From: Candidatus Syntrophocurvum alkaliphilum
Lineage (GTDB): Bacteria; Bacillota; Syntrophomonadia; Syntrophomonadales; Syntrophomonadaceae
Direction of reading: 5' to 3'
Assembly (NCBI RefSeq): GCF_009734445.1
Contig: NZ_CP046457.1
Coordinates: forward strand, 1,172,001-1,236,000
DNA length: 64,000 nt
In this document: positions 7,139-57,636 of the stretch, one piece after another
Layout: every line of letters starts with the position of its first letter
Position numbering within the stretch: position 1 is the stretch's first letter
The notes under the pieces: model-generated
Databases searched by the model: none
Seen by the model: only the letters and a program-made list of their open reading frames with translations
What the model was told of the DNA's origin: nothing
Translations under genes and position numbers: made by a program

Positions 7139-7588
7139 ATTAATCACTCCAAAAAGGTCCTTCTAATATTAATAATATGCAAAATAAGTGCCATTTGCTA
7201 CAAATTAGTAATTATGGTACTAAATAACACAATAGTGTTACTCCTAGACATAAAAAAAGCTAATGATTAACACTTGGTTTTACTTTTATCCTCACTGGAA
7301 CATAATTTAATCTATTATTTCTACTATACCAGTCTCACCGTTTCTTCTAAAAACTTGACCATCTTTAAGTTCAGTGGTAGCTTGGCAACTGCTATAACGC
7401 AGCCTACCTCTTATCATAAATAAGATACTATTTGTTATTAAGGTTATATTTTGCTTTTTTTTTATGTACTGATTGTTCATACATGATAATGAAATAGATT
7501 CTCAGATTGACTTCTTTTTTATTAAAGGAATATTTGGTAAAAATGAAGAAATAAAGTTTTAAATGTTAATCACTTAGGAGGATTTTAT
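7139..7588. other. intergenic region with little recognisable content
   Basis: About 450 bases between divergent genes. Apart from a possible 36-codon frame on the minus strand (entered separately), I see only A/T-rich sequence. The ribosome site TTAGGAGGA directly precedes the parA start at 7589. Confidence 0.6.
7307..7417 (-). CDS. possible 36-residue protein
   Basis: An ATG at 7417 opens a 36-codon frame ending TAA at 7307-7309. The product ends LKDGQVFRRNGETGIVEIID, which has the balanced composition and alternating beta pattern of a real small protein or of the end of a larger one. No ribosome site is visible, and the frame stays open upstream of the ATG for several codons. It may therefore be a relic of a longer gene. 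I recognise no family. Confidence 0.25.
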   Translation of the reverse strand: MIRGRLRYSSCQATTELKDGQVFRRNGETGIVEIID

Positions 7589-8338
7589 ATGCGAAAGATT
7601 GCTATAAGTAATCAAAAAGGAGGTACTGGGAAAACTACTTCAACTATCAATATAGCTTATGGTCTGCAAAAAAAAGGACAAAAAGTATTAGTCATTGATC
7701 TTGACCCCCAAGCTAATCTTACTGCCTCCTTAGGAATAAGTGATAATACTGCCCAAAAAAATATTTTTCACATTATGAAAAATGAATGTCATGTAAATGA
7801 TGCTATATTGGACATACGAAATGTATCAATCATACCTGCAAATATTAATTTGGCTGCTTGTGAGACTGAATTTTCTAACATAGCTGGTAGGGAATTTATT
7901 CTTAAAGAATCTTTACATGAAATTAGTGACTTTGATTTTATTCTTTTAGATTGTTCTCCTAGTTTAGGCTTACTTACTTTAAATGCTTTTGTTATGGCAG
8001 AAGAGATTATTATTCCTGTTCAAGCAGAATTTTTGGCTTTACAAGGTATGAGTAAATTATTAGAAACTATAGAGATAGTTAAAAATCGTATTAACCCTTC
8101 TCTTAAAATAAGTGGTATTATATCAACTCGTTATGATAATAGAAAAATATTAAATCGTGAAGTTGTAGAAAAACTAGAAACACATTTTGCTGACAAACTA
8201 TTTTCAACATTTATAAGAGAAAATATTTCTTTGGCTGAAGCACCTAGCTTTGGACAAGATATTTTTACATACCGTCCTGATTCTGCTGGGGCGAAGGATT
8301 ATTTATCTTTATGTGAAGAGATTTTAAAAAGGAGTTGA
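7589..8338 (+). CDS. parA: ParA/Soj-family ATPase
   Basis: The 249-residue product starts after AGGAGG and opens with ISNQKGGTGKTTSTINIAY, the deviant Walker A motif of ParA/MinD ATPases with the signature lysine. Further motifs include VLVIDLDPQANLTASLG (Walker A'), FDFILLDCSPSLGLLTLNA (Walker B) and the ParA-type ISGIISTRYDNR. ParA ATPases bind DNA or membrane cooperatively and segregate DNA or position cargo. The usual partner ParB with its HTH domain is absent. The next gene overlaps the stop codon and encodes a small coiled-coil protein that may be the cargo adaptor. The pair resembles plasmid-type or orphan ParA positioning systems rather than the chromosomal parAB locus. Confidence 0.9.
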   Translation: MRKIAISNQKGGTGKTTSTINIAYGLQKKGQKVLVIDLDPQANLTASLGISDNTAQKNIFHIMKNECHVNDAILDIRNVSIIPANINLAACETEFSNIAGREFILKESLHEISDFDFILLDCSPSLGLLTLNAFVMAEEIIIPVQAEFLALQGMSKLLETIEIVKNRINPSLKISGIISTRYDNRKILNREVVEKLETHFADKLFSTFIRENISLAEAPSFGQDIFTYRPDSAGAKDYLSLCEEILKRS

Positions 8339-8343
8339 AAGTG

Positions 8344-8694
8344 ATGACTCAAAAAAAACGAATGGGTAAAGACCCTTTTGAACAATTAGAATGGATACAA
8401 GACAGCCGTGATCCTAATATAGAAAAAAATCTAGCTTCAAAAGTACAAACAGAAAATACTAGTCAGGAAAAAGCAAGTAAAACTAGTATTGAAATAAACA
8501 ATAATCAGCAAGAACAAATTTTGAGTTTACTCAATGAATTAAATGATAAACTTAAATCATTTGAAAAACAGGAAAAAGAGGTTGCACAATTACGTGAAGA
8601 AATTTCTGCACTTAAAAAGCAACTTGAACATGATATGATGTTAATTAAAAACCCATGGATGATATGGTTTCCATGGGCTATTTTCAAGAAATAA
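8344..8694 (+). CDS. small coiled-coil partner of the orphan ParA
   Basis: The 116-residue protein begins at ATG 8344, nine bases after AAAGGAG. An earlier GTG at 8341 is also possible, and a TTG at 8335 is too close to the ribosome site. The N-terminal third is basic and polar, residues about 50-95 form a charged coiled coil (QEQILSLLNELNDKLKSFEK), and the C-terminus is short, aromatic and hydrophobic (NPWMIWFPWAIFKK), which could bind membrane. The gene starts directly after the parA stop, so the two are co-translated. I infer that it couples ParA to its cargo, because ParA partners are often small and coiled. No named family is recognised. Confidence 0.6.
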   Translation: MTQKKRMGKDPFEQLEWIQDSRDPNIEKNLASKVQTENTSQEKASKTSIEINNNQQEQILSLLNELNDKLKSFEKQEKEVAQLREEISALKKQLEHDMMLIKNPWMIWFPWAIFKK

Positions 8695-8888: not shown

Positions 8889-11342
8889 TTATATCTTTTT
8901 CACTACACCAATTACTAAACCAAGAATATTGGCCTGCTCGTTTTGAATTTGTATAGGTTCATAATTATTGTTCTCAGGAATTAAAAGAATGGTATCCCCC
9001 ATTTTCATCCATCGCTTCATTGTAGCATCATCATTAATAGCTACAACTACAATGTCTCGGTTATAAGCCTCCTGTTGTTTTCGAACAAGTACATAATCTC
9101 CATAATGAATTCCAGCATCTTGCATGCTATCACCTTTTACCTCTAGCATAAAACATTCGCCTTGCCCTTGTAACCATTCGTTGGGCAAGTAAAATCGTTC
9201 TCCTATCTCCTCATTCATATAGAGAGGTACACCTGCAGCAATATTGCCATATATCGAAACACCCCTAGTGTTATCATCTGAGTATATAGTTTCCTCCACA
9301 CCTTCACCTTCTTTAACCGTCAATACATATGGTTCATAAGGGTCACGAATGATTTCATATTCACAATTATGTTTCAAGTCATTATATATATATTTTTCTA
9401 TGGAAGAAGGGAGCATAGATGTATGAAATGGAGGAATATCGTCCACTTTTTCATGCTCATTATTTATTACAATCAGTTCATTGCCATCTGTTACTATGCC
9501 ATACTGACAAGTCTTGCTGTGACTCATATAACTCTTTAGCTGTGAAAAACCCTCTTTAACACCTGTTCCAAAATATTTTACCTCAATAAATATAAAAGGT
9601 ATGAGATTGTTATTATTATAAATTGACACTGCAATGTCTACAGAACCCACTGCAGAGAAACTATTAACCTTATACTCAACATCTATCAATTCAGATGGGT
9701 ATTTATAAGTTTGTTTTAATTCCTTAATAACCCACTGCCTAACTTTTTCTTCTTTGGAATAAAGGTTAAATATTTTTTCTCTAAAGGCATAATTATCTAT
9801 CCTTATATCATAATACTTCCTAAACTTGCTGTATGAATTGATCCTTAAGTAATTATGGTTAATTTCCTTGATGAAAGGAGAAGGGGTACCGCTAGAACTC
9901 AAATAAAGAAGTTCATTAGCTCTAGTCATTCCTACATATAATAACTTTCTATCGTTTGACATTTGAACACTTTCGTCATCTATGTCCTGATACGATATAA
10001 ATGGCACTAGACCTTCATTTAGACCAATAATGAAGACTACTTTAAATTCTAATCCCTTAATGGAATGCATAGTAAGAAGTTTCACCATATTGCTTTGAAA
10101 ATCCGAATCTTTCTTAGTAATGATATTACATGGAATACCTAATTTATCAAAGTATTCTTTTGCCTCGTGAAGTTGATTTCTATTTTTAGCAATAACCACA
10201 ATATCTTTATAGTCATACCGTTTTATAAGATTACCTTGTATTTCTTTTGCTACACTATTCAATTCATTCTGTGGTTGCCTAAACCATCGGTATACAGGAA
10301 AATAACCTTGACGGTCAATCAAAGATGGTTTTACAAAATTTTCATCATCAATGATATTTTGATCCTTCTCAATTAGGCTATACGCTGCTTGAGCAATTTG
10401 CGTTGTAGTTCTATAGTTTTTTGCTAAAGTATTACTTTTCCCCGTCATATCAAAACCAATGGTGGTAAAGCTTCTGCCTTTGACTAACCATGAATGTGGG
10501 TATATGCTCTGAGCAGTATCAGTTATAAAGTATATACTACTGTACTCTTCTTTTTGGTACATCAATTTTAGTACCTCAAGCTGTACTCTAGTCAAATCCT
10601 GGCTTTCATCAATAATGATATGAGTATATCTCTTACCCACCATTTTCTTAGCTTGCTCTAAAGCAATTAGAGCCATATCCTTAAAATCTATGTATCTTTT
10701 TTCCTTAAGGCGTTCATTGTAAAGAATCATGAGATCAAAGATTGCTTTTCTTGTATTGGAATTTTTCATTAATTTCTGGGGGCCTTCCTTGCTCTGATGA
10801 TTCATTCTGCCCAATCTATCTGCATTTTGATATTCCTCGATCTCCATATAATTACAAGATTTAATCCAGTCAATTTCATCCATTAAAAAAGATATATTCC
10901 TATGATCCAATATATTTATATTGGAATATTCCTTTTTTAATTCTGCAACACATGCAGATAAGATTGCATATTTTGTTCTACTGTCTGATATTACTTCACC
11001 TATTTGCTTATTGTGCTTTTTATATTGACTAAAATATTTATAAAGAATACTATCGATTGTATGTATATCAACTTTTTTCTTATTTTTGCCAAAAATATCT
11101 TGAAATGGCATTTGGTTTTCTTCTTCTACTTTTTCATATAAATGCTGGATGTAATTAACCAGCGTTTTATTGTATGTTACCATCAAAACATTGTCATCTT
11201 CCCCAAAACAATAATTAGTTAATAAAAAGGGAATTCTATGAACAGCTACAGTTGTCTTGCCTGAACCAGCTACTCCCTTGATTAAAACATGACCATTTGG
11301 CTTAGCTTGTATTAACCTCTTTTGTTCCATATTTAACTGCAT
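8889..11342 (-). CDS. UvrD-type helicase fused to a nuclease-like domain and a LexA-type S24 peptidase
   Basis: The 817-residue protein follows a GAGGAGG site. Residues 1-500 are a superfamily 1A helicase: Walker A GVAGSGKTTVAVH (23-), HIIIDESQDLTRVQ, TMHSIKGLEFKVVFIIGLNE and LLYVGMTRANELLYL. Residues about 540-640 look like a type I restriction HsdR N-terminal nuclease fold (FIEVKYFGTGVKEGFSQLKSY). Residues 694-817 are a LexA/UmuD-type autopeptidase. The cleavage pair Ala-Gly is at 703-704, Ser739 is in GDSM and Lys776 in TMKRW. The Ser-to-Lys distance of 37 is the same as in E. coli LexA. The protein could unwind DNA and be switched by self-cleavage. No SOS box is visible upstream. It has no operon partner, and its role is inferred as DNA-damage response or phage defence. 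Confidence 0.8.
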   Translation of the reverse strand: MQLNMEQKRLIQAKPNGHVLIKGVAGSGKTTVAVHRIPFLLTNYCFGEDDNVLMVTYNKTLVNYIQHLYEKVEEENQMPFQDIFGKNKKKVDIHTIDSILYKYFSQYKKHNKQIGEVISDSRTKYAILSACVAELKKEYSNINILDHRNISFLMDEIDWIKSCNYMEIEEYQNADRLGRMNHQSKEGPQKLMKNSNTRKAIFDLMILYNERLKEKRYIDFKDMALIALEQAKKMVGKRYTHIIIDESQDLTRVQLEVLKLMYQKEEYSSIYFITDTAQSIYPHSWLVKGRSFTTIGFDMTGKSNTLAKNYRTTTQIAQAAYSLIEKDQNIIDDENFVKPSLIDRQGYFPVYRWFRQPQNELNSVAKEIQGNLIKRYDYKDIVVIAKNRNQLHEAKEYFDKLGIPCNIITKKDSDFQSNMVKLLTMHSIKGLEFKVVFIIGLNEGLVPFISYQDIDDESVQMSNDRKLLYVGMTRANELLYLSSSGTPSPFIKEINHNYLRINSYSKFRKYYDIRIDNYAFREKIFNLYSKEEKVRQWVIKELKQTYKYPSELIDVEYKVNSFSAVGSVDIAVSIYNNNNLIPFIFIEVKYFGTGVKEGFSQLKSYMSHSKTCQYGIVTDGNELIVINNEHEKVDDIPPFHTSMLPSSIEKYIYNDLKHNCEYEIIRDPYEPYVLTVKEGEGVEETIYSDDNTRGVSIYGNIAAGVPLYMNEEIGERFYLPNEWLQGQGECFMLEVKGDSMQDAGIHYGDYVLVRKQQEAYNRDIVVVAINDDATMKRWMKMGDTILLIPENNNYEPIQIQNEQANILGLVIGVVKKI

Positions 11343-12079: not shown

Positions 12080-14341
12080 CTATTTTTCAAACCTAGCGTA
12101 GTACTCCTCTAACTTTTTATTACACCTATCAATTATCCAATCTTTATCATCACTACTAAGCTTTTTGTACACACTTGGGTTAAACATTATCCATTCTATT
12201 TCTTTACATCTTTTCACAAAGCTCATATCAGATACAACTTTAAAGGGATTTCTAAATATCAAGTGTTCAACATCTTTTCTACTATAATCACCTTTAGCAA
12301 AAATACTTGCTTTCTTTTCAACTACTAATCCTTTATCTTTACGTCCTTCATAATAATCAATAAAAAAATCTATTAAATCTTGAACTTTTACTCTTCCAGT
12401 ATCATTGCATCTATCAAGCATTGCCATAAATAGAACTGGTTTATAAGAATAACTCATATCCATAGTGTTTATATACTCTATAAACTTCTCCTTTATATTT
12501 GCACTAGTAATGAGATCCCAATTAAACTCTTTAGCGTATTTTTCAATACTTTCTTTGTGGAAATAATTAAATCTTCTCGTATCACTTATAGGAACAGATA
12601 GATCTGGTTTTATCTTTCCATTTTTTATATATGATTCAATTGTTCCTTCCTGCACATCAACCATACGTACGAATTCAGTCTGTGATAACATATTTTTCGC
12701 TTCATTTTGCCAGTCAAATAAATCAATAACCTCAAAGTCCTTAGCATCTATAGGAATATCTAAATACATAGTTGGTTTTTCTCCTTGATAAACCATGTTT
12801 TTATCAAATTGCTTTTTATCTGGTGGTGCCACTACATATTCAAATGGACGGTATTCGGCAATATTAAGAATTCGGTGTAAAGAACATGGTGTATTTAACA
12901 TTCGGGCATTATCAACAAAATCAAATACTAATAAATCCTCTTTACCTTCACATTTTCTTGTTCCCCTTCCCACCTGCTGTAAATATATAGTTTTAGACAT
13001 TGTTGGTCGTGCCATAAATAGCACTTCAGTTCTGGGACTATCCCATCCTTCATTTAATAAGTCACATGCACAAAGAACATTAACATTACCATTTTCATAT
13101 TCTTCAAGAATTGAATTACGATAATTTAGTTTATCTTGTCCTGAGATAGGTCTTGCTTTAACACCAGCTGTCTGTAATAATTCAGCTATTTCTTGAGCAT
13201 GCTTTACACTGGCGCAAAATATAACTGTCTTTTTATTCTTTACGTATTTTAAATATGTATCTACAATTAATTTATTGCGTTCAGGAACATATATCTTACT
13301 TTCTAAATCTTGCATATTATATTTAATTCCATTAATTCTAACATCAGATAAATCAACATTTGTTTTAACTCTAATGCATCTAATTGGTGCTAAATAACCA
13401 TTTTCAACAGCTGTTTTCAAATCCATTTTGTGGGCTGTATTTTGAAAAAGTTCTAGCATATTTTCGCCATCCATACGTTCTGGTGTAGCAGAAAGGCCTA
13501 GAATAAATTTTAGTTTGAAATAATTAAGAAGCTTTTTATAAGTTTTAGCAGCAGCATGATGACATTCATCAATAATGATGTAATCAAATGAATCAGGGAA
13601 AAAATCATCAAGATTTCTAGAAATGCTTTGTATTGTTGCAAAAATCACTTGTTCTGTTTTACTTTTTACACTCCCAGTATACCTACCTCGACTAGCTTCT
13701 GGCCAAATATTAGCAAAAGTATCTTCAGCTTGGTCTGCTAGCTTAAGAGCATTTACTAAAAATAGAGTTCTACCACCTACGGATTTAGCATCTGTAGCAG
13801 CTGTAACTGTCTTTCCAATTCCAGTAGCATGATATAATAAAGCTATGCTCTCACCTTTAGCACGCATATTTTGTAAATTCTCTATAGCTTCTTCTTGGTA
13901 TTCACGCAATTCTATTACCTTTCCTTGTTGAAGTGGTAAATAATCCTCGAAGGCTTTAAAAAATGGATTTTCTCCTAAAAAAGTAAGTAGTTCGTCTTTA
14001 ACTTTTTCTGGTTGTTTCATTAGCTGTCTATAAGCCCAACGAAAAACTTTCCATTCATTATGCACTAAACTATTTTGTTTTAATAAATCATCATAATATT
14101 TGTTTTCTGAAACTAATTTGGGATTATGATAGGTTTCACCATCAATCTCAATTGCAATTCTCATATCTTCATTTTCAAGAGCAAAATCTATGTATCTTTG
14201 ATTACCATAAATATCTTTAAAAGGATATTGAACATATAATTTTTCTTCTTTTTCAGGACCAAAAGCCTCGCAAAACAGTTGTACAAAGATATCTTCTGCT
14301 TTGCTGCTTACAGCATTAACACTTTTCTCGTAGTGATACAC
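12080..14341 (-). CDS. SF2 helicase with N-terminal nuclease domain (HIT-helicase module 1)
   Basis: The 753-residue protein has an N-terminal PD-(D/E)XK-like region (about 35-110, with YIDFALENEDMRIAIEIDG and later KVFRWAYRQLM). This resembles DUF559/Vsr-type nucleases fused to helicases. It continues as a superfamily 2 DEAD/DEAH helicase: HATGIGKTVTAATDAKSV near 168, YIIIDECHHAAAKTY, FILGLSATPERMDGENML and YLQQVGRGTRKCEGKEDLLV. The remaining C-terminal segment is helical and unassigned. The gene starts three bases after the HIT hydrolase gene stops, so the two form an operon. The arrangement is repeated at 25.4-28.2 kb with a different nuclease domain. I infer an anti-phage or DNA-processing module. 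The stop may be premature, because coding-like sequence continues behind it. Confidence 0.75.
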   Translation of the reverse strand: MYHYEKSVNAVSSKAEDIFVQLFCEAFGPEKEEKLYVQYPFKDIYGNQRYIDFALENEDMRIAIEIDGETYHNPKLVSENKYYDDLLKQNSLVHNEWKVFRWAYRQLMKQPEKVKDELLTFLGENPFFKAFEDYLPLQQGKVIELREYQEEAIENLQNMRAKGESIALLYHATGIGKTVTAATDAKSVGGRTLFLVNALKLADQAEDTFANIWPEASRGRYTGSVKSKTEQVIFATIQSISRNLDDFFPDSFDYIIIDECHHAAAKTYKKLLNYFKLKFILGLSATPERMDGENMLELFQNTAHKMDLKTAVENGYLAPIRCIRVKTNVDLSDVRINGIKYNMQDLESKIYVPERNKLIVDTYLKYVKNKKTVIFCASVKHAQEIAELLQTAGVKARPISGQDKLNYRNSILEEYENGNVNVLCACDLLNEGWDSPRTEVLFMARPTMSKTIYLQQVGRGTRKCEGKEDLLVFDFVDNARMLNTPCSLHRILNIAEYRPFEYVVAPPDKKQFDKNMVYQGEKPTMYLDIPIDAKDFEVIDLFDWQNEAKNMLSQTEFVRMVDVQEGTIESYIKNGKIKPDLSVPISDTRRFNYFHKESIEKYAKEFNWDLITSANIKEKFIEYINTMDMSYSYKPVLFMAMLDRCNDTGRVKVQDLIDFFIDYYEGRKDKGLVVEKKASIFAKGDYSRKDVEHLIFRNPFKVVSDMSFVKRCKEIEWIMFNPSVYKKLSSDDKDWIIDRCNKKLEEYYARFEK

Positions 14342-14344
14342 AAT

Positions 14345-14731
14345 CTAACACCCCAATACACAGTAATATATCCTCTTCTCCGGTATTACTCCCCTAACTC
14401 CACCAGTAGGATTATCTAAATCTCCTTTATACCTTGGGATTAAGTGTACGTGTACATGAAAAATAGTTTGTCCTGCATCTTCGCCACAATTAATTCCAAT
14501 GTTATAGGCATCAGGTTTATATTTTTCATCTAGTAGGTTTTTACAATCCATAACCAGTTTATCTATAGCCTGTCTTTCTTGTATTGTAGTATCAAAGTAA
14601 TCAGCAACATGTCTTTTAGGAATTATTAGCATGTGACCAGGATTAACTGGGTATTTATCATATATAGCAAATGCTAAATCATTTTCTAGAACTTTTTCTT
14701 TTATTTCACAAAAAATACATTTGTCTATCAT
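14345..14731 (-). CDS. HIT-family hydrolase (module 1)
   Basis: The 128-residue protein starts at ATG 14731 after AGGAG. It has the N-terminal CIFCEIKEK of HIT hydrolases with a cysteine pair, the segment GHMLIIPKRHVADYFD, and the catalytic triad motif HVHVHLIPR near residue 103. HIT enzymes hydrolyse or transfer nucleotides from adenylated or nucleotide-linked substrates. The protein is nearly identical to the one at 27843, including its GGVRGVIPEKRIY tail, but carries seven extra C-terminal residues. The gene is placed directly before a nuclease-helicase gene with no gap. This suggests that the hydrolase removes or senses a nucleotide modification linked to the helicase's job. That functional link is inferred. 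Confidence 0.85.
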   Translation of the reverse strand: MIDKCIFCEIKEKVLENDLAFAIYDKYPVNPGHMLIIPKRHVADYFDTTIQERQAIDKLVMDCKNLLDEKYKPDAYNIGINCGEDAGQTIFHVHVHLIPRYKGDLDNPTGGVRGVIPEKRIYYCVLGC

Positions 14732-22540: not shown

Positions 22541-23341
22541 TTACATACCTAAATCTATTGCAGCTAATCGAACTGCCTCGTCATCAATATACTTTAGTCC
22601 CTTTTGACAACCAAAAACTAGACTATTAGTCGCTAGGCTATTAATCAAACGTGGCCATCCACGACTTACAGAAGTAATTGCTTCAATTGCTGCATCTGAA
22701 AATATAGGATAACTAGATCCAGCTAAAGTCATTTGGTGTTCAATATAAGCTTTAATTTCTTCTCTAGACAAAGCTTGCATTTTGTATCGCATAATAAGCC
22801 TTTGGTTTAATGGTTGATGATGTCCTAGTGATAACTTCATACTTAAAGATGGCATACCACACAGTATAAGAATAAAAGGATTTTCTGCATCCATAGAGAA
22901 ATTAAATAGCATATGTAAATCACTTAAAAAGCTTGAAGTTGCAAATTGTAATTCATCTAAAACAATAAAAGGTGTAATCTTTTTATTATGGTAAAAGCTT
23001 AAAATAGCCTCTTGAATTTGTTTAAAAAGATCAATTTTTCTAGAAGCAGGTTCTAAATCAAGACTATAAGCTAAGCCTCTATAAAAATCATTAACAGTAA
23101 CAGTAGATAAAGGGAAATATACAGTCTTGTATAAAGCAGGATTAAGAGAAGTGGTAAAAGATCTTAATCCTGATGTTTTCCCTGAACCTGCTTCACCTAC
23201 TATCATGCCAATTCCACGATTATCTTTTAAATAATTAAGTCTAGCAGTTAATTCATTGTAAGAATTAGAAGTAAACATATTCTTAGAATTAATTTCTTTA
23301 CTAAAAGGTTTAGAAGATAAAGAATAAAAACTTTTAAACAT
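22541..23341 (-). CDS. ExeA/TnsC-like AAA ATPase of the transposon
   Basis: The 266-residue protein has Walker A VGEAGSGKTSGLRSF (48-), Walker B PFIVLDELQFATSSFLSDLH, and an AAA sensor region FILILCGMPSLSMKLSLGHH with LNQRLIMRYKMQALSREEI. ExeA-family ATPases of this length serve as target-selection or transposase-activating partners (TniB, IstB, TnsC type). The gene starts two bases after the transposase stop, so they are translationally coupled. It is intact and full length, which suggests that the transposon is recent. Confidence 0.85.
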   Translation of the reverse strand: MFKSFYSLSSKPFSKEINSKNMFTSNSYNELTARLNYLKDNRGIGMIVGEAGSGKTSGLRSFTTSLNPALYKTVYFPLSTVTVNDFYRGLAYSLDLEPASRKIDLFKQIQEAILSFYHNKKITPFIVLDELQFATSSFLSDLHMLFNFSMDAENPFILILCGMPSLSMKLSLGHHQPLNQRLIMRYKMQALSREEIKAYIEHQMTLAGSSYPIFSDAAIEAITSVSRGWPRLINSLATNSLVFGCQKGLKYIDDEAVRLAAIDLGM

Positions 23342-23343
23342 AA

Positions 23344-24633
23344 TTAACTATCCCCCTTTTGCGTTGAAGCCTGATGAAAAGAAAGCTTCTGTTCTGGGTT
23401 ATCTAGAGAATAGTCACGTTTAATAATAGCATTATCAGCTAAAGATACTAACTTACCATATTCTAAAAACTCATCATTTTCATATACCATTACCTTATCC
23501 ATATTTTTAGGATCAAATCTTACTTCAACACGTTTACCTATAAAAATAGAAGAGACCTCATAAAACTGATTGTAAAGAGAAATAGTAGAATCATTATTCA
23601 CCTTGCGTTTCTCTCTTTTTAAAAATAGATTATTAACCCATAAAGGGTCATCAACCACCTTGATTTTGCTTGCCTGGGACATATACTTATCAAGAGGTGA
23701 AATTTTCAAAGCAGAATGTATGCGCCTGTGATAATCCTCTTCTAACCATCTTAAAAAAGCGTTATTAAGTTCTTCTAAAGAAGACGGCTTTTTAGGGATT
23801 AACGGTAAAAACCTATCTCTTACAGTGCGAAAAAATCTTTCTATTTTCCCTTTACTAGCAGCATCATACGGCTCGGTATGTGAAATAGCAGTTCCCATTC
23901 TAGCGCATGCTTCATGAAATAGAGTAGAGCGATAAACCTTAGCATTATCAAGATAAACTACTTGAGGAATACCCCTTCTAAGTAAAGCCTCAACATATAT
24001 ACTCTTCATACTCTCAAAATTTTGCTCTACATCAAATCTAGCAAAAGTAACAAGTCTTGAACAATCATCAATAAATGCAAAAAGATAAGTAGGTTTTCTT
24101 TTTCCATTAACATAAAGATAAGGTCCAACCATCATATCGCCTTGCCATAGGTGATTAACTTCATCATAAGCAAATTTTTTTCTAACCTTAGAAGATGATT
24201 GTTCTACTAAAGGTTTAGCTAAATTTCTTTTAGCAAGAAAACGGTAAACTGAATGATAAGATATCTGTGAACGTAAAAACAAGCCATCTTTAACCATCTG
24301 TTCATAAAGTAGCATTACACTAATACTAGGGTTTTCTTGTCTATAGGATATTATCTTTTCACCTAAAGATGAAGAAATAACTCTAGAAGAGCCCTTGTCT
24401 TTTCTGCCTTTAGGTTTCAGTGCATCTAAGCCGCCTTTTTTGTAATCATAAAACCAGATCCGAATTGTTTTAGCATTATACTCTCTTTTACCGTAATAAG
24501 GGACATCATGGACTTGTGATGCTAATGTCTCTAAATACTCACTAATATCTTCAATTTGATTATTAAGAATTGGAGCAACAAGAGAAAAGCGAAATAGAGC
24601 TATTTGTAGTTTTTGTTCTTCTGTAATAGCCAT
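23344..24633 (-). CDS. DDE integrase-core transposase
   Basis: The 429-residue protein has an N-terminal HTH region (about 60-135, NAKTIRIWFYDYKKGGLDAL and RVISSSLGEKIISYRQ). An rve-type integrase core follows, with LWQGDMMVGPYLYVNGK (first Asp near 169), VVYLDNAKVYRSTLFHE (second Asp) and DAASKGKIERFFRTVRD (catalytic Glu). The C-terminal beta barrel is typical of Mu/TnsB-type transposases (GKRVEVRFDPKNMDKVMVYE). It cuts and joins the element ends and works with the adjacent ATPase. A ribosome site is embedded in the repeat TCCAATAATAACTGGAGG region upstream. All DDE residues appear present. Confidence 0.9.
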   Translation of the reverse strand: MAITEEQKLQIALFRFSLVAPILNNQIEDISEYLETLASQVHDVPYYGKREYNAKTIRIWFYDYKKGGLDALKPKGRKDKGSSRVISSSLGEKIISYRQENPSISVMLLYEQMVKDGLFLRSQISYHSVYRFLAKRNLAKPLVEQSSSKVRKKFAYDEVNHLWQGDMMVGPYLYVNGKRKPTYLFAFIDDCSRLVTFARFDVEQNFESMKSIYVEALLRRGIPQVVYLDNAKVYRSTLFHEACARMGTAISHTEPYDAASKGKIERFFRTVRDRFLPLIPKKPSSLEELNNAFLRWLEEDYHRRIHSALKISPLDKYMSQASKIKVVDDPLWVNNLFLKREKRKVNNDSTISLYNQFYEVSSIFIGKRVEVRFDPKNMDKVMVYENDEFLEYGKLVSLADNAIIKRDYSLDNPEQKLSFHQASTQKGDS

Positions 24634-28317: not shown

Positions 28318-28383
28318 AATAAATTCATACTCAAAACTTTCATCTTAAGCAAACTAATATTTTGATGTAAATCCCTCTAAAAG

Positions 28384-28743
28384 GGGCTAATCCCTTATAG
28401 GTACGCTAAAAACAAAGAAATGTAGTAAAGCCAGTTAAGGAGGGAAACAAGTTTCAATTCCTTATAGGTACGCTAAAAACTATTCCACGGTTCATTGAAT
28501 TTAAGTATTTTATTTTTGTTTCAATTCCTTATAGGTACGCTAAAAACTACAAAGTAATAACATCTAAAACCTGTGCTAAATGGTTTCAATTCCTTATAGG
28601 TACGCTAAAAACATTCAAACTCTATTCTTTCTTCATTATCCATGTGTAGTTTCAATTCCTTATAGGTACGCTAAAAACTATATCTAGCTACTTCACGAGC
28701 TGATGTTGCTAGAGTTTCAATTCCTTATAGGTACGCTAAAAAC
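28384..28743 (-). CRISPR. CRISPR array 1: 6 repeats, 5 spacers
   Basis: Repeat copies of 30 bp start at 28384 (degenerate), 28451, 28518, 28583, 28649 and 28714, with 35-37-base spacers. On the plus strand the repeat reads GTTTCAATTCCTTATAGGTA then CGCTAAAAAC. The degenerate repeat is on the left and the conserved leader on the right, so transcription runs on the minus strand. The transcribed repeat begins GTTTTTAGCG and ends in ATTGAAAC, the usual 8-base crRNA tag of type I-B and III systems. Arrays 1-5 share this repeat. Confidence 0.97.
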
Positions 28744-28900
28744 CCACTAGGGTGAAGAAGAATACATGGTTTTAGCATTTTTGCTTTTCCATGTTAATTT
28801 ATTCTAATATTTATATTTTTCTTTGTAAAGCCCTATATTACAAGATTTTTATTTGTCGTCGACCCCTGAGGTTTTTTACACTACTGGAGGTCGACGACAA
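28744..28900 (-). promoter_or_regulatory. leader and promoter of array 1
   Basis: The minus strand carries TTTACA (28824-28829) and TAGAAT (28801-28806) with an exact 17-base spacer, a good sigma-A promoter reading into the array. Next to the repeat is a symmetrical element (ACATGG, AGCA, TGCT, CCATGT). At 28853-28900 a long hairpin with arms TTGTCGTCGACC and GGTCGACGACAA closes the leader. Confidence 0.8.
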
Positions 28901-28964
28901 ATTTTATGAGTTATATATTAATACATTTTGAAATATCTGCTTCATCAGACAAACTAGTTTTCAT

Positions 28965-31679: not shown

Positions 31680-32038
31680 TGTCTATCTCCTTATAGGTAA
31701 ACTAAAAAATATAGTCAAGCCCAATTAATGTTCGATGCCCCACTGGGATTTCAATTCCTTATAGGTACGCTAAAAACGCTTTTGTCAATCGTGCTTGCTG
31801 TAACATGATAGGTTTCAATTCCTTATAGGTACGCTAAAAACGATTGTACTCCATTTGTTCTCGATTTAAAGCCAACCTGTTTCAATTCCTTATAGGTACG
31901 CTAAAAACCAGGAGAAAGCAGCTATAAAATACTTGAAACGTTAGTTTCAATTCCTTATAGGTACGCTAAAAACTTGTCCAAGTTTTTTTCACATCCCCCC
32001 TTGGATGAGTTTCAATTCCTTATAGGTACGCTAAAAAC
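31680..32038 (-). CRISPR. CRISPR array 2: 6 repeats, 5 spacers
   Basis: Repeats start at 31680 (clearly degenerate), 31748 (one change), 31812, 31879, 31944 and 32009. Degeneration is on the left and the leader on the right, so the array is read on the minus strand. The repeat is identical to array 1. It follows the III-D operon's last gene. Confidence 0.97.
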
Positions 32039-32194
32039 CCACTAGGGTGTAGAAAAATACATGGTTTTAGCATATTTGCTTTTCCATGTTAATTTATTCT
32101 AATATTTATATTTTTCTTTGTAAAGCCTATATTATAAGATTTTTATTTGTCGTCGACCCCCGGGGTTTTTTACACTACTGGAGGTCGACGACAA
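32039..32194 (-). promoter_or_regulatory. leader and promoter of array 2
   Basis: TTTACA (32119-32124) and TAGAAT (32096-32101) are separated by 17 bases on the minus strand. The leader hairpin (32147-32194) begins nine bases after the stop of the CARF-HEPN gene. Confidence 0.8.
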
Positions 32195-32202
32195 AAATAA
32201 TG

Positions 32203-34704
32203 CTATTTTAACTGCATATCATTTTCAGCTTTGTTCAGCAGAATTAAAAAACTATTCCAATCGTCTGTGTTTTTTTCAAATATTATATTATTAAATCTTT
32301 TTTGTAACTCTTTTATTTCTTCTTGTTTATCTAAAGAAGCTAGAAATGGATTTTCTCTATAGCCACAGTGGGTTATATCATTACGCAGTTCTTTTAATTG
32401 TTTCCAGAAATCGAGTATTTCTATATCCTTTGAGTTTGTTTTTACTAGCTCATTTAATAGATCATTATATTTATCACGGTATTTTTCAATTAAATAGCCT
32501 TCACCACTATAATTTGGATTATTAAGAATCAGTTTAGTTATTAACACTTCATGCATATTTGTCACTGCTTGCCAATATTGAGAATGATTTATTAACCATT
32601 CAACCAGATAACTATAGCGTTTATCAAATTCATTTTCATTTAGCTTTTCAAATTCATTTTCAAAACGTTCTAAAATTGGTATGTATGGTTTAGCCCATTG
32701 CTCTATTTCACTACTCATTTTAGTGTAGTCAATTTTTTCATATAATCCCATAACCTGCTTTAGTTTTTCACTATTATTAAAATTTAGACAGGAACTAATA
32801 TTTTCTAAGTTATTAGAAACTTTTTTCATTACTTTAGGTGTTAAGTCACTATTCCTCTGGTATGCTAATTGATGTTCATTATTTATTAGTTTTGCTAATA
32901 AGTTTTGGTCACCATAATCAATAAAATCATATATTCCTCGAATCCAATCTAGCATTGTTACAAAACGTGTTAAGTCAAATGTAGGAGATATCTTTACCCC
33001 ATCTTTATCTTTTCTTGCTTCATAAGCTCCATAATAAACTGCTTCTATAACACAATTTTTCACAACTTTTAAATAATAAATTGCAATTAAATTGATAAAA
33101 GGAATAGAACGAAAACCATGAGTAATATCAAATATTACCTTACTATTATCTTCTACATTATTAATAATACTAAAAAAGATATCCCATAATTCTTCCTCAT
33201 TACGACCATCGGGAATATCTACAAAGTTTAGTCTATCGTATTCGGTTAATTCATCTTCTAGTGCTTTTTTATGAATTCTTTTTGCAGCTTCAGTAACTAT
33301 TATTATAGTTTTATCAGGTTTTAATGCCTGAACTACCACCTTTTGAAACAACTTTGTTTCCACTCTAATATTCTCATCTTTTTTCTTAAATTCATAGGTT
33401 GCTACTCCATAGTCAGACGTTCCTAATGTACTTATTAGTATAGTTTTGTCTGTTTCTTTACTTAAATTAATATCTTTTAAGTTATCTGTTTGAGGCTGTT
33501 TGTTATTATCTGTTTCTAATAGAGATTTACCTGTTAGTATAGAGGTTAATTTATTCCAATCGTTTTTACCATTTTCATTTATTACTGATTTAAATCTAGC
33601 AAATATATTTTCTATAGATTTTTTATCAAAATTAGGAGAACTGTCTTTAAACCCGCAATGTGCTATAGCATTACGATAATCTATTAAATTCCCCCATAAA
33701 CTAATTATTTTTGGTTCTTTATTATTTTTTTTAAATTCTTCACTTAGTTTATTGGATATTTCTTCACGTTTTTTAAAGTCATATATCTCATTTTCACTAG
33801 AACCATATATCTTTATTAAGATTTTTGATATATAAAGTTCACGCATATAACTAAATGCTTGAGCATATTGCTCATGTGTTAACAGCCAATCAATTAAGTT
33901 TATAGAGCATTGAGCAAAATCACTGTCTACCATCATAGAAAAATCTTTTTCTATTTTTGCTAACATAGGATATAAGGGTTTAGCCCTTTTTTTTACTTCT
34001 GTTTCGATTTCGGTTCTATTGCTTTTTATATTGATACTATACTTAGTTAAAGCATCACTTAATTGCTTACTCCTACTAAAATGTAGACAGAGATCAATCT
34101 CTTGTAAATTATCTGCTAATTCATTTAAATATGTAATAGGCTCGTTATTTTGTTTCAAATCAATACTTTTTATTAATTCTACTATAACTTTACTATCACC
34201 ATATTTTATAAAATCTTCTAGACCTTTTATCCATTCTAATAAATCTGCAAATATACTCAAATCTACAGCAGGAGTTACTGGAACCCCTTTTTCAAAAGCT
34301 CCATAATAAACTCCATTAACAGTACAATTCTTAACTGCTCTTACATAAGCTATAAGTAAGGCTATTATCATAGGTATAGAACGGAATGAGTTAGTTATAT
34401 CAAATACTAGCTCCTCATTTTCACTTATTTCATTTATAAATATAGAAAAGATTTCCCAATACTCTTCTTCATTTTGCCCTTCTGGTATTATAACTGGTTT
34501 TATTGGTATATTGGTATCAAGATTTTCTATTAACAATTCCCAATTCTTTTCATATGCTCGATTAGTTAGAAAAACAATTACTTCAGTAGGTTTTTTGGCT
34601 TCGATTATAGCTTTTTGAAAAAAGGAAGTTTCTACACTTATTCCGTCAAACTCGTATACAGTTTTCTTATAATCTGTAGTTCCTAATAAACTAATTAACT
34701 TCAT
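32203..34704 (-). CDS. tandem CARF-HEPN effector (Csx1/TIGR02221-like, duplicated in one chain)
   Basis: The 833-residue protein is two copies of one unit. Copy 1 (about 1-390) has MKLISLLGTTDYKKTVYEFD, the CARF motif VFDITNSFRSIPMI and a HEPN-like motif RNAIAH (R-x4-H) near 345. Copy 2 (about 420-830) has ILISTLGTSDYGVATYEF, VIFDITHGFRSIPF (the DxTHG signature of TIGR02221/Csx2-type proteins) and RNDITH near 795. Csx1-type proteins normally dimerise to form one cOA pocket and one composite RNase site; here one chain supplies both halves. It is the last gene of the III-D operon, so it should respond to cyclic oligoadenylate made by Cas10. Both HEPN motifs look intact, while the CARF signature is degenerate (T-N-S) in copy 1. 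Confidence 0.8.
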   Translation of the reverse strand: MKLISLLGTTDYKKTVYEFDGISVETSFFQKAIIEAKKPTEVIVFLTNRAYEKNWELLIENLDTNIPIKPVIIPEGQNEEEYWEIFSIFINEISENEELVFDITNSFRSIPMIIALLIAYVRAVKNCTVNGVYYGAFEKGVPVTPAVDLSIFADLLEWIKGLEDFIKYGDSKVIVELIKSIDLKQNNEPITYLNELADNLQEIDLCLHFSRSKQLSDALTKYSINIKSNRTEIETEVKKRAKPLYPMLAKIEKDFSMMVDSDFAQCSINLIDWLLTHEQYAQAFSYMRELYISKILIKIYGSSENEIYDFKKREEISNKLSEEFKKNNKEPKIISLWGNLIDYRNAIAHCGFKDSSPNFDKKSIENIFARFKSVINENGKNDWNKLTSILTGKSLLETDNNKQPQTDNLKDINLSKETDKTILISTLGTSDYGVATYEFKKKDENIRVETKLFQKVVVQALKPDKTIIIVTEAAKRIHKKALEDELTEYDRLNFVDIPDGRNEEELWDIFFSIINNVEDNSKVIFDITHGFRSIPFINLIAIYYLKVVKNCVIEAVYYGAYEARKDKDGVKISPTFDLTRFVTMLDWIRGIYDFIDYGDQNLLAKLINNEHQLAYQRNSDLTPKVMKKVSNNLENISSCLNFNNSEKLKQVMGLYEKIDYTKMSSEIEQWAKPYIPILERFENEFEKLNENEFDKRYSYLVEWLINHSQYWQAVTNMHEVLITKLILNNPNYSGEGYLIEKYRDKYNDLLNELVKTNSKDIEILDFWKQLKELRNDITHCGYRENPFLASLDKQEEIKELQKRFNNIIFEKNTDDWNSFLILLNKAENDMQLK

Positions 34705-35257: not shown

Positions 35258-36376
35258 TTAATATGTTTTATTTCCATCACGTATAGGCCAAGGATTACCA
35301 GCAGGATTATCCCAGTTTAATATATTACTTAATATATTAATATTTGTTTTTATATCTTTAGGAGCTTTTTCTCTATATTCTTTAGCAAGTGTTGTAAAAT
35401 CAAGCTCTTCTTTCTTTAAACCATAACGACTTTTAATATCTTCATACTTTTCAAAAGAAAATCTAACACTACCAAAATAAGCTGGTTTACCATAACCTAT
35501 TTTGGGGGTTATAGCTTTATCTAGTCCAAAAGAGAAAGCTAATAAAGACAGTTCTTCATAACTTAAATTATTTATTATTACACTACCAACAAGTGTTGTT
35601 CCCGCAGGTATGAATTCATGAGGAATACCATTTTTTCTTTCTTCTGTTTCTTTAGAATGATAATAAAACTTCCTACCCCGGAATCGGTAGTTTCGGGAGT
35701 TATTATTTAATAATTTTAGTTTTTCTAAATATTCTTCTTTGGTACAAGTATTGCATTTATCAAAATCATTACATACTTGACAATAATATAACCTTTCATT
35801 TCCATAGCCATTTTCGGGAAAGGGACGTAATCTATTTTTTGGATAGTCCTTTTTAAAAGGGCTTTGTAATTGTGGTAATAATCTGGTTTCTAACTTCACT
35901 TCTTCAATAGGTGAAAAATCTTCAAAAATAATTTGCCCTTTATAAGATACATCTCGTGAGCTAAAACCAAATAATCTACAACTTACACAGGCATCTTGTT
36001 TTTGGCATACAAATCTATTACTAGATGGTAAAGCTTGATTTAAAAACCTTTTTGGTGGTTGAGGAGCACATGAATATGATACTGATTCTGTAATACTGCG
36101 AATAGCCCCCTTAATGCCGGAACCGGGAATATAAACTCTATTATTTAACTCTGCAGTCATAACAGTAAAATCATTTTTATTATCTTCAAATCGGTATTTG
36201 CCCTGCGAAACATGGACTGGACTTAAGGTTTCCATTTTTAAAAACAATTTGCCGCTATATCTGTCTGGATGTATTTTATTATGACCTATGTATTTTTCAC
36301 TTTCCTTTTTTTCAAGTAGTGGAACAAATGCATACGGTTTTTCTGATAAAATGGTACCTTTACTCATGTTACCCAC
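35258..36376 (-). CDS. type III RAMP protein (Csm5-like/Csm3-like Cas7)
   Basis: The 372-residue protein has the RAMP core KLFLKMETLSPVHVSQGKYR, the glycine-rich loop YIPGSGIKGAIRSI, and CVSCRLFGFSSRDVSYKGQ. Near the middle a cysteine cluster (YYCQVCNDFDKCNTC) suggests a zinc-binding insertion. It is the most downstream RAMP and may cap the complex at the 3' end of the crRNA, like Csm5. It overlaps the upstream RAMP gene by eight bases. Assignment to Csm5 versus a further Csm3 paralogue is uncertain. Confidence 0.75.
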   Translation of the reverse strand: MGNMSKGTILSEKPYAFVPLLEKKESEKYIGHNKIHPDRYSGKLFLKMETLSPVHVSQGKYRFEDNKNDFTVMTAELNNRVYIPGSGIKGAIRSITESVSYSCAPQPPKRFLNQALPSSNRFVCQKQDACVSCRLFGFSSRDVSYKGQIIFEDFSPIEEVKLETRLLPQLQSPFKKDYPKNRLRPFPENGYGNERLYYCQVCNDFDKCNTCTKEEYLEKLKLLNNNSRNYRFRGRKFYYHSKETEERKNGIPHEFIPAGTTLVGSVIINNLSYEELSLLAFSFGLDKAITPKIGYGKPAYFGSVRFSFEKYEDIKSRYGLKKEELDFTTLAKEYREKAPKDIKTNINILSNILNWDNPAGNPWPIRDGNKTY

Positions 36377-37211
36377 CTACCTTTGTTAGGCTTTTACTTA
36401 CATCTACTTCATAAAGAGGACTGCCTTCTTCTAATAGTTCTTCCCAGCCATTTAGATTAGAAGTAAAATAATAAGCCTCTTTTTTATAGTCTAATTTTCC
36501 TCCTATATCTTCCTTTTCTCTACCTAGTAAAAAACCCTCTTTATTAGAACGATAATCTCTGATTTTTATCTTAATATCTGATACAGTGACTCTACCCATT
36601 CCACGTGTAGTGCCACCACCAATTCCATATAATCCATCATCTAAATCTTTTATAGCCCAAAGACTTAGTTTTAATTGTTTTAGTTCATAATTAGTCAAAA
36701 ATATAGAAACATTAAAAACAGCACTCTCTACTACTTCTTGGTCATATAAAGCACCCTGTTGAGCAGCTCCTGTAATGCGATTTATTCCTACACCTTTTTT
36801 TATGCCTGTAATCACTTCACCTATTGGATAAGCATCAGGAAAAGCTATTCTAGAAGCAGTTAAGGTACTACCAAATAATTGGCAAGCAAGGCACATGTTT
36901 TCATATTTTTCTTTTGCAGTATTATCACTTAATTCTTTTTGTTTATTTGAACAAGACTGGGAACTATTAGTAACATTACAGGTTACGCCCCCTAATAGAT
37001 TAATTATTTGTTCACAACGAGTTCTGATTACCCCTTTTAAACTTGCTCCTGGAATATATACACTTTCTTTTCCTCCATAAAAAGATCTAACACATTGCAT
37101 ATCTGGACGATTAGGCTCTAGTACATTTTCTTGACCACTTCGTATAGCTAAAGGGGAAACAGGTTTTATATTAAATGAGATTATGGCTTCATTTTTCAGA
37201 TCTTTAAACAA
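36369..37211 (-). CDS. type III RAMP protein (Csm3-like Cas7)
   Basis: The 280-residue protein has FNIKPVSPLAIRSGQENV, VYIPGASLKGVIRTRCEQI (the RAMP glycine-rich loop), CLACQLFGSTLTASRIAF and GIGGGTTRGMGRVTVSDI. These are hallmarks of Csm3-type backbone subunits, with a cysteine pair in the insertion. It lies two bases after the neighbouring Csm3 gene and overlaps the next gene. The Asp that cleaves target RNA in Csm3 is not obvious in the segment PNRPDMQ, so its RNase activity is uncertain. Confidence 0.75.
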   Translation of the reverse strand: MFKDLKNEAIISFNIKPVSPLAIRSGQENVLEPNRPDMQCVRSFYGGKESVYIPGASLKGVIRTRCEQIINLLGGVTCNVTNSSQSCSNKQKELSDNTAKEKYENMCLACQLFGSTLTASRIAFPDAYPIGEVITGIKKGVGINRITGAAQQGALYDQEVVESAVFNVSIFLTNYELKQLKLSLWAIKDLDDGLYGIGGGTTRGMGRVTVSDIKIKIRDYRSNKEGFLLGREKEDIGGKLDYKKEAYYFTSNLNGWEELLEEGSPLYEVDVSKSLTKVGG

Positions 37212-39845: not shown

Positions 39846-40516
39846 GCACTTCCCCCTTCACTGATATCATTTATTTCATATTCTTTTTCATTCACAAAAA
39901 ATCTAGGAGTTATATTTACCCAACCTAAACCCCTAGTTTGATTTCCTCCTAGCGTTCTTATATGTTCAATAGATAAACGGAGTAAGTTAATTTGCTGATC
40001 TATACTGACAGTATTTAATCTCAATGAACCTTCAAAACTACCGGCAAAAGCTATAGCCTCACTAGGTGAAAATACCTCTTGATTAAATAAGAGTTTATTA
40101 CCAGCTACACCCCTTTGTCGCTCTATAGTAACACCCCTTCTAGGCATCATTAAGGAAGCAATATAGCTTTCAGACATGTTATCTAAAACAGGATATAAAT
40201 TATCAAAATATAAAGCCCCCGGATATGTGTTTCCTGCTGCTCCAAAATATGCGCAGACTATACAATTTTTGCAGGGTTCATTACCATTGACATCATTATT
40301 GCAAACCTCAATATCTAAAGCTCTAGCCATTATAGTGGTATTATACCTCATTCTACCTTTTATAGTTGTCCCAGGAACAAATGGAATATTTCTAGCATCC
40401 CTTAAAACATAAGAATCCATAATCCCAGCCAAACCTGTACCAGAACTAATACTATATGCTGAATCAAACCTAGCTTCAAGCTCTACTTTTAATCTAGTTG
40501 GCATTTTTCTCATCAC
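39842..40516 (-). CDS. type III RAMP protein (Csm3-like Cas7)
   Basis: The 224-residue protein has LKVELEARFDSAYSISSGTG, FVPGTTIKGRMRYNTT (glycine loop), CKNCIVCAYFGAAGNTYPGA and IRTLGGNQTRGLGWVNITP. All are hallmarks of the compact Csm3 fold. It overlaps the cas10 end by 23 bases, and the start is a GTG in GTAGGTG context. As the first RAMP after Cas10 it is a backbone subunit. The segment GIMDSYVLRDARN carries an Asp that could be catalytic. Confidence 0.8.
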   Translation of the reverse strand: MMRKMPTRLKVELEARFDSAYSISSGTGLAGIMDSYVLRDARNIPFVPGTTIKGRMRYNTTIMARALDIEVCNNDVNGNEPCKNCIVCAYFGAAGNTYPGALYFDNLYPVLDNMSESYIASLMMPRRGVTIERQRGVAGNKLLFNQEVFSPSEAIAFAGSFEGSLRLNTVSIDQQINLLRLSIEHIRTLGGNQTRGLGWVNITPRFFVNEKEYEINDISEGGSA

Positions 40517-42635: not shown

Positions 42636-43096
42636 GCACTTCACTCCTTTCGTTTATTTCTAATATTTTTTAAGTTTACTGTATATAATGTTTAATTACC
42701 TCTTTATTTTATATCATGGCTTATATTTCCAGTAACTTTGACAATAATGTGCCTTATATAAATAAAAAGTTATATTTATATTGAAGTACAGTAAAAAGAA
42801 TGAACTGTCCTAAGGCATAACTATTAATAAAACCTAAGTGTTTTACGAGTATGTAATGTCGTAATAAATAGTACAAAAGCAAGTATATGGGTTAATGCTA
42901 AGTATATAAAAAACTAATCAATTAATTTATACTGGTATTATGAGATAAATTATTACATGTTATTTGTAACCTACAGGATTGTAGAACAATCATAAAATCA
43001 CCTGCCCATTATATGACTAATACCATCATGATTCTGCATAATTTCACTAAATCCTGCCAAAAAGTACTAGTAGTCTAATACTTTTTTCCTAAATTG
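42636..43096. other. regulatory region upstream of the III-D operon
   Basis: About 460 gene-free bases hold a sigma-H-like promoter at 43031-43055 (entered separately). They also hold a weak inverted repeat (TTTACTGTA near 42675 and TACAGTAAA near 42788) that could be an operator, and a plus-strand GTCGTAATA near 42869 that recalls part of the 17-base motif. The long untranslated leader suggests post-transcriptional control. Confidence 0.5.
43031..43055 (-). promoter_or_regulatory. sigma-H-like promoter upstream of cas10
   Basis: The minus strand reads AGGATTT, 14 bases, GAAT. This is the spacing expected for sigma-H (RNAGGAWWW, 11-12 bases, RNNGAAT). It reads toward cas10. Confidence 0.55.
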
Positions 43097-44639: not shown

Positions 44640-44704
44640 AGGAGATTTTTTAATATGAGAAGTATAAAAAGTTGTTGAAAATATTGGTATTAGACATGAC
44701 ATTA

Positions 44705-45788
44705 ATATAAATTCCTTATAGGTACGCTAAAAACGAAGGAGACGAGTTCGAAATTGATGCCGAAACGTAGTTTCAATTCCTTATAGGTACGCTAAAAACG
44801 TTGCTTGGTTTCCGTTCTCTACTGGATTATGAGTCGTTTCAATTCCTTATAGGTACGCTAAAAACCGTTGGTACAACCTTTTTCTCACGTAACCATTTAT
44901 AAGTTTCAATTCCTTATAGGTACGCTAAAAACTTAAAACAAGTAGTTAAAATTGGCAAAAGAGAATTAAGTTTCAATTCCTTATAGGTACGCTAAAAACC
45001 GGAAAACTACAAGGGCATTTAATAGCACTTCAAAGTTTCAATTCCTTATAGGTACGCTAAAAACACCAACCCATTCAAAGAGTTCCTGAGTGGGCAAAGA
45101 GTTTCAATTCCTTATAGGTACGCTAAAAACACGTGCTGTGAGGTAACTCTTGCAGCACGGATTATGTTTCAATTCCTTATAGGTACGCTAAAAACATGAA
45201 AGGATGATTTTAATGAAATTAATAAATTGGGGTTTCAATTCCTTATAGGTACGCTAAAAACTATGCCATGCTTGTTGATCCGAATGTAGTTCTGGTAGTT
45301 TCAATTCCTTATAGGTACGCTAAAAACATAATACAGGTGACATAGGAGCACATCAAGATTTTGGTTTCAATTCCTTATAGGTACGCTAAAAACCTGGCGC
45401 GCAATTTGAAATAGTAAAGAGCACTGAGTTTCAATTCCTTATAGGTACGCTAAAAACTTTTAGCACTTAAAAAAGTGCGAGGATAGGAGGAAGTTTCAAT
45501 TCCTTATAGGTACGCTAAAAACTTACAAAACGGGAGAAGCAACCGCAGAATATAGATGTTTCAATTCCTTATAGGTACGCTAAAAACACCTATCTTGGTC
45601 AAGGTAAACTTCTCCGTTTTCGTCGTTTCAATTCCTTATAGGTACGCTAAAAACCTTTCACTGATTTATCTATGTCTTTAGCTATATATTTGTTTCAATT
45701 CCTTATAGGTACGCTAAAAACGGGGTTTATTGGGCTAATCATTTTTCTACTATTGGTCGTTTCAATTCCTTATAGGTACGCTAAAAAC
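44705..45788 (-). CRISPR. CRISPR array 3: 17 repeats, 16 spacers
   Basis: This is the largest array. Repeats start at 44705 (degenerate), 44770, 44836, 44903, 44970, 45035, 45101, 45166, 45232, 45298, 45364, 45428, 45493, 45558, 45625, 45692 and 45759. Spacers are 34-37 bases. All repeats except the leftmost are identical to those of the other arrays. It is read on the minus strand from the leader at its right, directly downstream of the adaptation genes. Confidence 0.98.
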
Positions 45789-56885: not shown

Positions 56886-56922
56886 AGTAAAAAACCTCTA
56901 TTAAAAATAACTTAATAGAGGT
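56886..56922 (-). terminator. terminator of array 5 transcript
   Basis: ACCTCTATTAA and TTAATAGAGGT pair around a short loop, with a T-run on the minus strand. It is the duplicate of the terminator at 54912. Confidence 0.75.
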
Positions 56923-57479: not shown

Positions 57480-57636
57480 CCACTGAAGGGTAGAAAAATA
57501 CATGGTTTTAGCTTTTTTGCTTTTCCATGTTAATTTATTCTAATATTTATCTTTTTCTTTGTAAAGCCCTATATTATAAGATTTTTATTTGTCGTCGACC
57601 CCCGGGTTTTTTTACACTACTGGAGGTCGACGACAA
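57480..57636 (-). promoter_or_regulatory. leader and promoter of array 5
   Basis: TTTACA (57560-57565), 17 bases, TAGAAT (57537-57542) on the minus strand; leader hairpin 57589-57636. The block lies directly after the WYL relic. Confidence 0.8.

Follow-up and report, generated by a model that had tools for sequence, protein, structure and literature searches.

LexA-type self-cleaving proteases are, to our knowledge, confined to repressors, polymerase accessories, and the regulators of phages or other mobile elements. LexA, UmuD, DinR, SetR, and cI all undergo proteolysis, and a scissile Ala-Gly or Cys-Gly pair together with a Ser/Lys dyad are their common features (PMC10020695). Here we describe a protease of this type that is carried at the C-terminus of a helicase-nuclease, encoded within a 64,000-nucleotide stretch of the Candidatus Syntrophocurvum alkaliphilum chromosome (the whole of the DNA that was analysed, hereafter the window).

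Results

The 2.36-Mb genome carries an intact open reading frame of 817 amino acids (8889..11342, minus strand, as for all of its parts given below; ATG start, 0 stops) which, on the basis of Pfam and homologues, joins an SF1 helicase, a PD-(D/E)XK nuclease, and a LexA-type S24 autoprotease. Residues 1-500 (9843..11342) correspond to domains 1A, 1B, and 2A of a UvrD-type helicase, as indicated by Pfam (UvrD-helicase at 3-281, 3.7e-26; UvrD_C at 411-484, 9.7e-27), alignments to PDB structures, and motif residues that are invariant in long homologues; the Walker A sequence GVAGSGKT lies at residues 23-30 (11253..11276). The alignment with this helicase skips PcrA residues 382-554, and the 2B domain is therefore missing, such that the initial annotation of a complete SF1 helicase was correct in that all motifs are present but not with respect to the 2B insert. 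The HsdR-like region that it had proposed proved to be an HSDR_N_2 PD-(D/E)XK nuclease at residues 530-637 (9432..9755; Pfam 3.6e-22), with conserved E556, D569, and E587-x-K589. A beta-rich segment (residues 645-692, 9267..9410), which is common to long and short members of the family and has no Pfam match, precedes the LexA-type domain at residues 697-817 (8892..9254).

Several lines of evidence identify this last domain as an S24 peptidase on the same chain, as had been claimed: a Pfam match (Peptidase_S24 at 697-811, 1.3e-31), a score of 120.4 bits against a cut-off of 110.95 for the NCBIfam LexA equivalog, and a LexA fold in the predicted model. NCBIfam has models for the separate parts, none of which spans the whole 817-residue chain. 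Conservation and spacing mark Ala703-Gly704 (9231..9236) as the predicted scissile bond, and conservation marks Ser739 (9126..9128) as the predicted nucleophile and Lys776 (9015..9017) as the predicted general base, all at the positions first assigned to them. Their proposed LexA-like spacing holds exactly for the Ser-Lys distance, which is 37 in each case, but only approximately for the Gly-Ser distance, which is 35 in the window protein and 34 in the LexA proteins measured, including that of the same genome. In the predicted model (mean pLDDT 81.7), the first 500 residues match UvrD/PcrA (best Z approximately 26-29), and residues 694-816 superpose on LexA as bound to RecA in 8s7g (Z 17.9, 1.7 Å, 122 residues). 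The S24 domain is 31-34% identical to solved LexA C-terminal domains over 122 residues.

The same three domains were found in more than 20 full-length homologues (the long form) when the combination was sought across genomes, and sequence comparison thereby establishes that the fusion is not a chance join. These homologues are 44-60% identical and occur in Clostridia, Bacilli, and Fusobacteria (Clostridium, Defluviitalea, Heliophilum, Bacillus, Lederbergia, Aquibacillus, Carnobacterium, Propionigenium, and Ilyobacter). Helicase residues K29, E246, Q278, R311, and R474 and nuclease residues E556, D569, E587, and K589 do not vary in any homologue whose contig extends over them, and the long-form enzyme probably unwinds and cuts DNA. 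At a threshold of E ≤ 1e-60, the long form is encoded in 17 of the 398 genomes sampled throughout the phylum. Copies interrupted by frameshifts or stops are frequent (L036, L039/G094, L044, L047, G243, and the second copy in G424), some of them on MAG contigs, in which the interruption could be an error of assembly. Phage carriage was considered and rejected, as phage and viral collections gave no full-length match.

Homologues without the catalytic dyad or the scissile pair would have counted against the proposed self-cleavage, and such homologues are largely absent. Ser739 and Lys776 are retained in 26/26 long forms and Ala703-Gly704 in 25/26. The one exception, from Ilyobacter (L025 11531-13963), reads V-S-G-D, with Asp in place of the scissile Gly in an otherwise intact protein. 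The LexA mutant G85D (solved as 1jhf) is altered at the corresponding residue; that mutant is non-cleavable, and the Ilyobacter homologue is therefore predicted to be a possible natural uncleavable variant, suggesting that at least one lineage may manage without cleavage.

Shorter relatives came to light first as L052 and L080, the latter sharing its genome with a long form (L028). The short form consists of helicase domains 1A/1B and the whole LexA-type domain, connected by a linker of approximately 30-56 residues; it lacks domain 2A (motifs V-VI) as well as the nuclease, and helicase and nuclease activity are therefore not expected. In the predicted model 1A/1B falls on UvrD 8-283 (Z 22.2) and the S24 domain on Thermotoga maritima LexA (Z 18.2), and HelD-like similarity was also seen. 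A match was obtained in 129 of 207 genomes of the family (Clostridiaceae-type). About 107 carry the short form, by a hand count of matches that span 400 or more of 495 residues, and 26 or more have the long form; across a 397-genome sample of the phylum the short form was present only in the seed genome. It is a chromosomal gene: plasmid and phage records gave no match, and carriage on either was rejected. Of the short forms tested, one scores above the threshold of the NCBIfam LexA equivalog and two lie just under it. A further type of truncation, a 343-residue nuclease-S24 protein without the helicase (L153 5891-6922), adjoins a tyrosine recombinase and was seen once.

Conservation within the short form is strongest in the protease. 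Ala703, Gly704, Ser739, Met740, and Lys776 are each present in 38/38 non-redundant sequences, as is the Walker A Lys, but the catalytic Glu246 in only 11/38; none of the short forms listed contains an internal stop. Median identity is 61% in the S24 domain and 37% in 1A/1B, and dN/dS in less diverged pairs is approximately 0.04-0.13 and 0.14-0.33, respectively, indicating purifying selection on both halves that is stronger on the S24 domain. As far as these sequences reveal, selection keeps the protease cleavable even without enzymatic cargo. Given that relatives devoid of the engine and nuclease have kept the self-cutting part letter-perfect, self-cleavage is probably central to what this protein is about.

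With LexA as the outgroup, the S24 domains of the fusion family form one clade (100/100), apart from the separate LexA of the same genomes. A first, narrower S24 tree had placed all short forms in a single clade, a result that was overturned by wider sampling: short forms L130 and L131 cluster with a long form of C. beijerinckii HUN142 (L035; 100/97), and a single short-form clade is rejected (p-AU 0.0085). The remaining short clade is modestly supported (80/61), and several divergent short forms sit on long branches. The tree of the N-terminal half recovers the same grouping (100/100) and again rejects a single short-form clade (p-AU 0.0003). Gene conversion of the S24 tail was set aside as an explanation of the odd long form L035, as agreement between two independent halves makes tail-swapping unlikely. 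The concordance of the two trees implies that the motor and nuclease were lost at least two times in Clostridiaceae, with the protease kept each time.

Regulation was assessed from the SOS box GAACN4GTT. As a positive control, the box was found upstream of lexA at 19/20 loci (0.5 expected); the corresponding figures are 2/43 for the long form (1.1 expected) and 0/50 for the short form (1.2 expected), with some loci overlapping. SOS-box control of the fusion gene is thus rejected, and damage dependence, if the term was meant by the initial annotation as LexA-controlled transcription, does not hold. An HTH-bearing LexA is separately present in 22/22 genomes tested; the fusion supplements LexA rather than replacing it, and by the SOS-box criterion it lies outside the LexA regulon. 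Since SOS boxes are absent from both forms, damage, if linked to the protein at all, would act on it after translation.

The location of the fusion gene in a defence island was borne out by its neighbours in the window, which comprise an SF2 helicase with an MTES_1575 nuclease domain (12080-14341, minus strand), a HIT protein (14345-14731, minus strand), and GmrSD-type, SF1+DUF2726, Mrr, and ParA genes. In L085 the homologue is likewise followed by an SF2 helicase and then a HIT gene, their reading frames overlapping, and this pair (12080..14731 in the window) is perhaps functionally linked to the fusion gene. Beyond this pair there is local synteny only, and a conserved partner was rejected, as no gene is widely common among the neighbours. 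More broadly, 102 close neighbours of long forms match 160 PADLOC families, including type I and type IV restriction, PbeA, DrmD, DpdE, and retron-type reverse transcriptase, while 84 proteins around 21 short-form genes match 8 families in the same test; these values are a contrast and not a count of systems, as one protein can match many models. The long form is usually in defence islands, although some contexts are housekeeping, as in Ilyobacter and Propionigenium.

Other features of these loci deserve mention in their own right. A ParA-type ATPase and a small overlapping second gene, a partition-like chromosomal pair, adjoin the fusion gene (7589-8694), and a TniA/TniB-like transposase pair (an rve/Mu-transposase protein and an AAA_22 ATPase) lies within the defence island (22541-24633). 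In L082, a reverse-transcriptase-like gene, assigned by sequence (7217-8140, 307 residues), is divergent from the long-form homologue. A large CRISPR region occupies 27500-62446 of the window, with type III genes (RAMP, 36369-37211; Cas10/Cmr2-type, 40494-42644), a Cas3-type gene (47745-50282), and arrays of the repeat unit GTTTCAATTCCTTATAGGTACGCTAAAAAC at about 28377-28768, 31741-32063, 44683-45788, and 56911-57480. Two stretches, 28712-28908 and 32007-32202, are near-identical (98% over 121 nt, then 86% over 92 nt), hold the palindrome TTTGTCGTCGACC...GGTCGACGACAAA, and end two repeat arrays approximately 3.3 kb apart, which suggests a duplicated array end. An 833-residue protein without a Pfam match (32203-34704) borders the type III genes, and a Card1-like protein of 739 residues with CARF_Card1 and Card1_endonuc domains (58842-61061), seemingly long for a Card1 nuclease, adjoins the CRISPR region.

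Discussion

The explanation that we favor, with moderate confidence, is that the long form is a stand-alone SF1 helicase-nuclease, usually resident in defence islands, in which a C-terminal LexA/UmuD-type autoprotease serves as a post-translational switch. The results above show the anatomy, conservation, evolutionary pattern, SOS-box absence, and predicted folds; the course of events that we consider most likely goes beyond them and would be as follows. The S24 tail would dimerise, as the LexA C-terminal domain does, and restrain the helicase-nuclease; single-stranded DNA exposed by damage or supplied by phage DNA would then carry a RecA filament that positions the cleavage loop, and Ser739 and Lys776 would cut Ala703-Gly704 in cis. 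RecA-stimulated cleavage in cis is proposed here by analogy with the established behaviour of LexA, UmuD, DinR, SetR, and cI. A helicase-nuclease of 703 residues would be released from a tail of 114 residues with its activity altered, more likely being freed to degrade DNA; in the main variant of this scheme, cleavage would instead be an off-switch that stops resection once RecA has loaded. The Clostridiaceae short protein, with its putative ATP- and DNA-binding 1A/1B module and intact autoprotease, probably works as a motorless damage-responsive switch.

A fuller version of this proposal is that RecA-filament-triggered self-cleavage directly switches the helicase-nuclease as a post-translational SOS branch acting on an effector, and that Clostridiaceae at least twice evolved from it a self-cleaving damage sensor stripped of motor and nuclease, whose chromosomal gene is now widespread and partly concealed by LexA-type annotation; we advance this whole tentatively, as a serious candidate that falls somewhat short of being probable. 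Mounting a LexA-type protease on a DNA-degrading motor would bring an immune or repair effector under direct control of the RecA filament, and the survival of the protease where motor and nuclease were lost, on two or more occasions, is in effect a natural experiment that tells which part counts. The short form also stands beside a real LexA in about half of the sampled Clostridiaceae-type genomes and, since it can exceed or come close to the cut-off of the LexA model, clostridial annotations and inferences on SOS regulons may be wrong.

One may postulate that the biology centres on the short form, as a LexA-like regulator whose HTH has given way to the 1A/1B module as a putative DNA-, fork-, or RNA polymerase-binding part, with the long form as its defence-island ancestor. 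The chromosomal location of the short form, its presence in 107/207 family genomes by hand count, its universal Walker A Lys despite a mostly lost Glu, and its HelD-like similarity are all in keeping with such a role; against this, neither target genes nor a conserved neighbour came to light. This scenario overlaps with our favored one, and we regard it as possible though doubtful.

In another scenario the protein is a DNA-repair enzyme under negative feedback, whereby resection leads RecA to load on single-stranded DNA and RecA-stimulated self-cleavage then switches the enzyme off. The AddA/RecB-like order of a helicase followed by a PD-(D/E)XK nuclease would fit, as would the housekeeping neighbours in Ilyobacter and Propionigenium, but the patchy occurrence of the long form (17/398 genomes), its defence-type neighbours, and the existence of interrupted copies would not, and a short form that has nothing to switch off is left unexplained; we consider this scenario unlikely. 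The S24 domain could also be a constitutive dimerisation or maturation module that is cleaved during folding or never, independently of a damage signal. The Gly-Asp site in Ilyobacter, the absence of an SOS box at both forms, and the absence of a common partner gene are compatible with this, yet a pure dimerisation domain need not keep the Ser and Lys that are invariant in 64 sequences, and we find the idea improbable. Finally, an ordinary stand-alone defence nuclease with a decorative S24 tail captured by chance would suit the defence-type neighbourhood in the window but is very hard to credit for a protease that distant phyla have conserved and that persists where the nuclease has been lost.

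Comparison with known systems

Individual parts of the fusion resemble described systems to different degrees. It shares an HSDR_N-type nuclease domain with HsdR, the R subunit of type I restriction enzymes, but its motor is SF1 rather than SF2, its nuclease follows the helicase, and neither HsdM nor HsdS is among the identified window neighbours. The best PADLOC matches to its N-terminal half are GajB of Gabija and C3a187 (NERD+UvrD), which are likewise UvrD-like helicases of defence loci; the fusion differs from both in having its nuclease C-terminal on the same chain together with an autoprotease tail, and from Gabija in that ParA, SF2 helicase, HIT, and GmrSD-type genes, and not GajA (OLD ATPase-TOPRIM), are its neighbours. 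AddA and RecB also place a UvrD-type SF1 helicase before a PD-(D/E)XK nuclease in one chain, and the catalytic residues are intact in the fusion. It is, however, much shorter, lacks 2B, has an HSDR_N_2-type nuclease and an S24 tail, has no AddB/RecC-like partner that we could see, and scores far below the family models (addA_Gpos, 58.2 bits against a cut-off of 707.65; recB, 42.6 against 696.05).

The S24 autoproteases of LexA, UmuD, and cI are matched in fold, including the cleavage loop, in the scissile Ala-Gly, from which the Ilyobacter homologue departs, in the Ser/Lys dyad, and in a near-identical spacing (35/37 rather than 34/37). Unlike LexA, the fusion has no N-terminal HTH and no Pfam LexA_DNA_bind match, with helicase and nuclease preceding the S24 domain instead; unlike all three, its protease is joined to a helicase-nuclease in the long form or to helicase 1A/1B in the short form, belongs to a clade of its own, and is encoded without an SOS box. 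A search of the open-licence literature returned no description of a helicase fused to an S24 protease. Judged against that literature, the self-cleaving module is already known, whereas the helicase-nuclease cargo and its repeated reduction to a motorless form are new.
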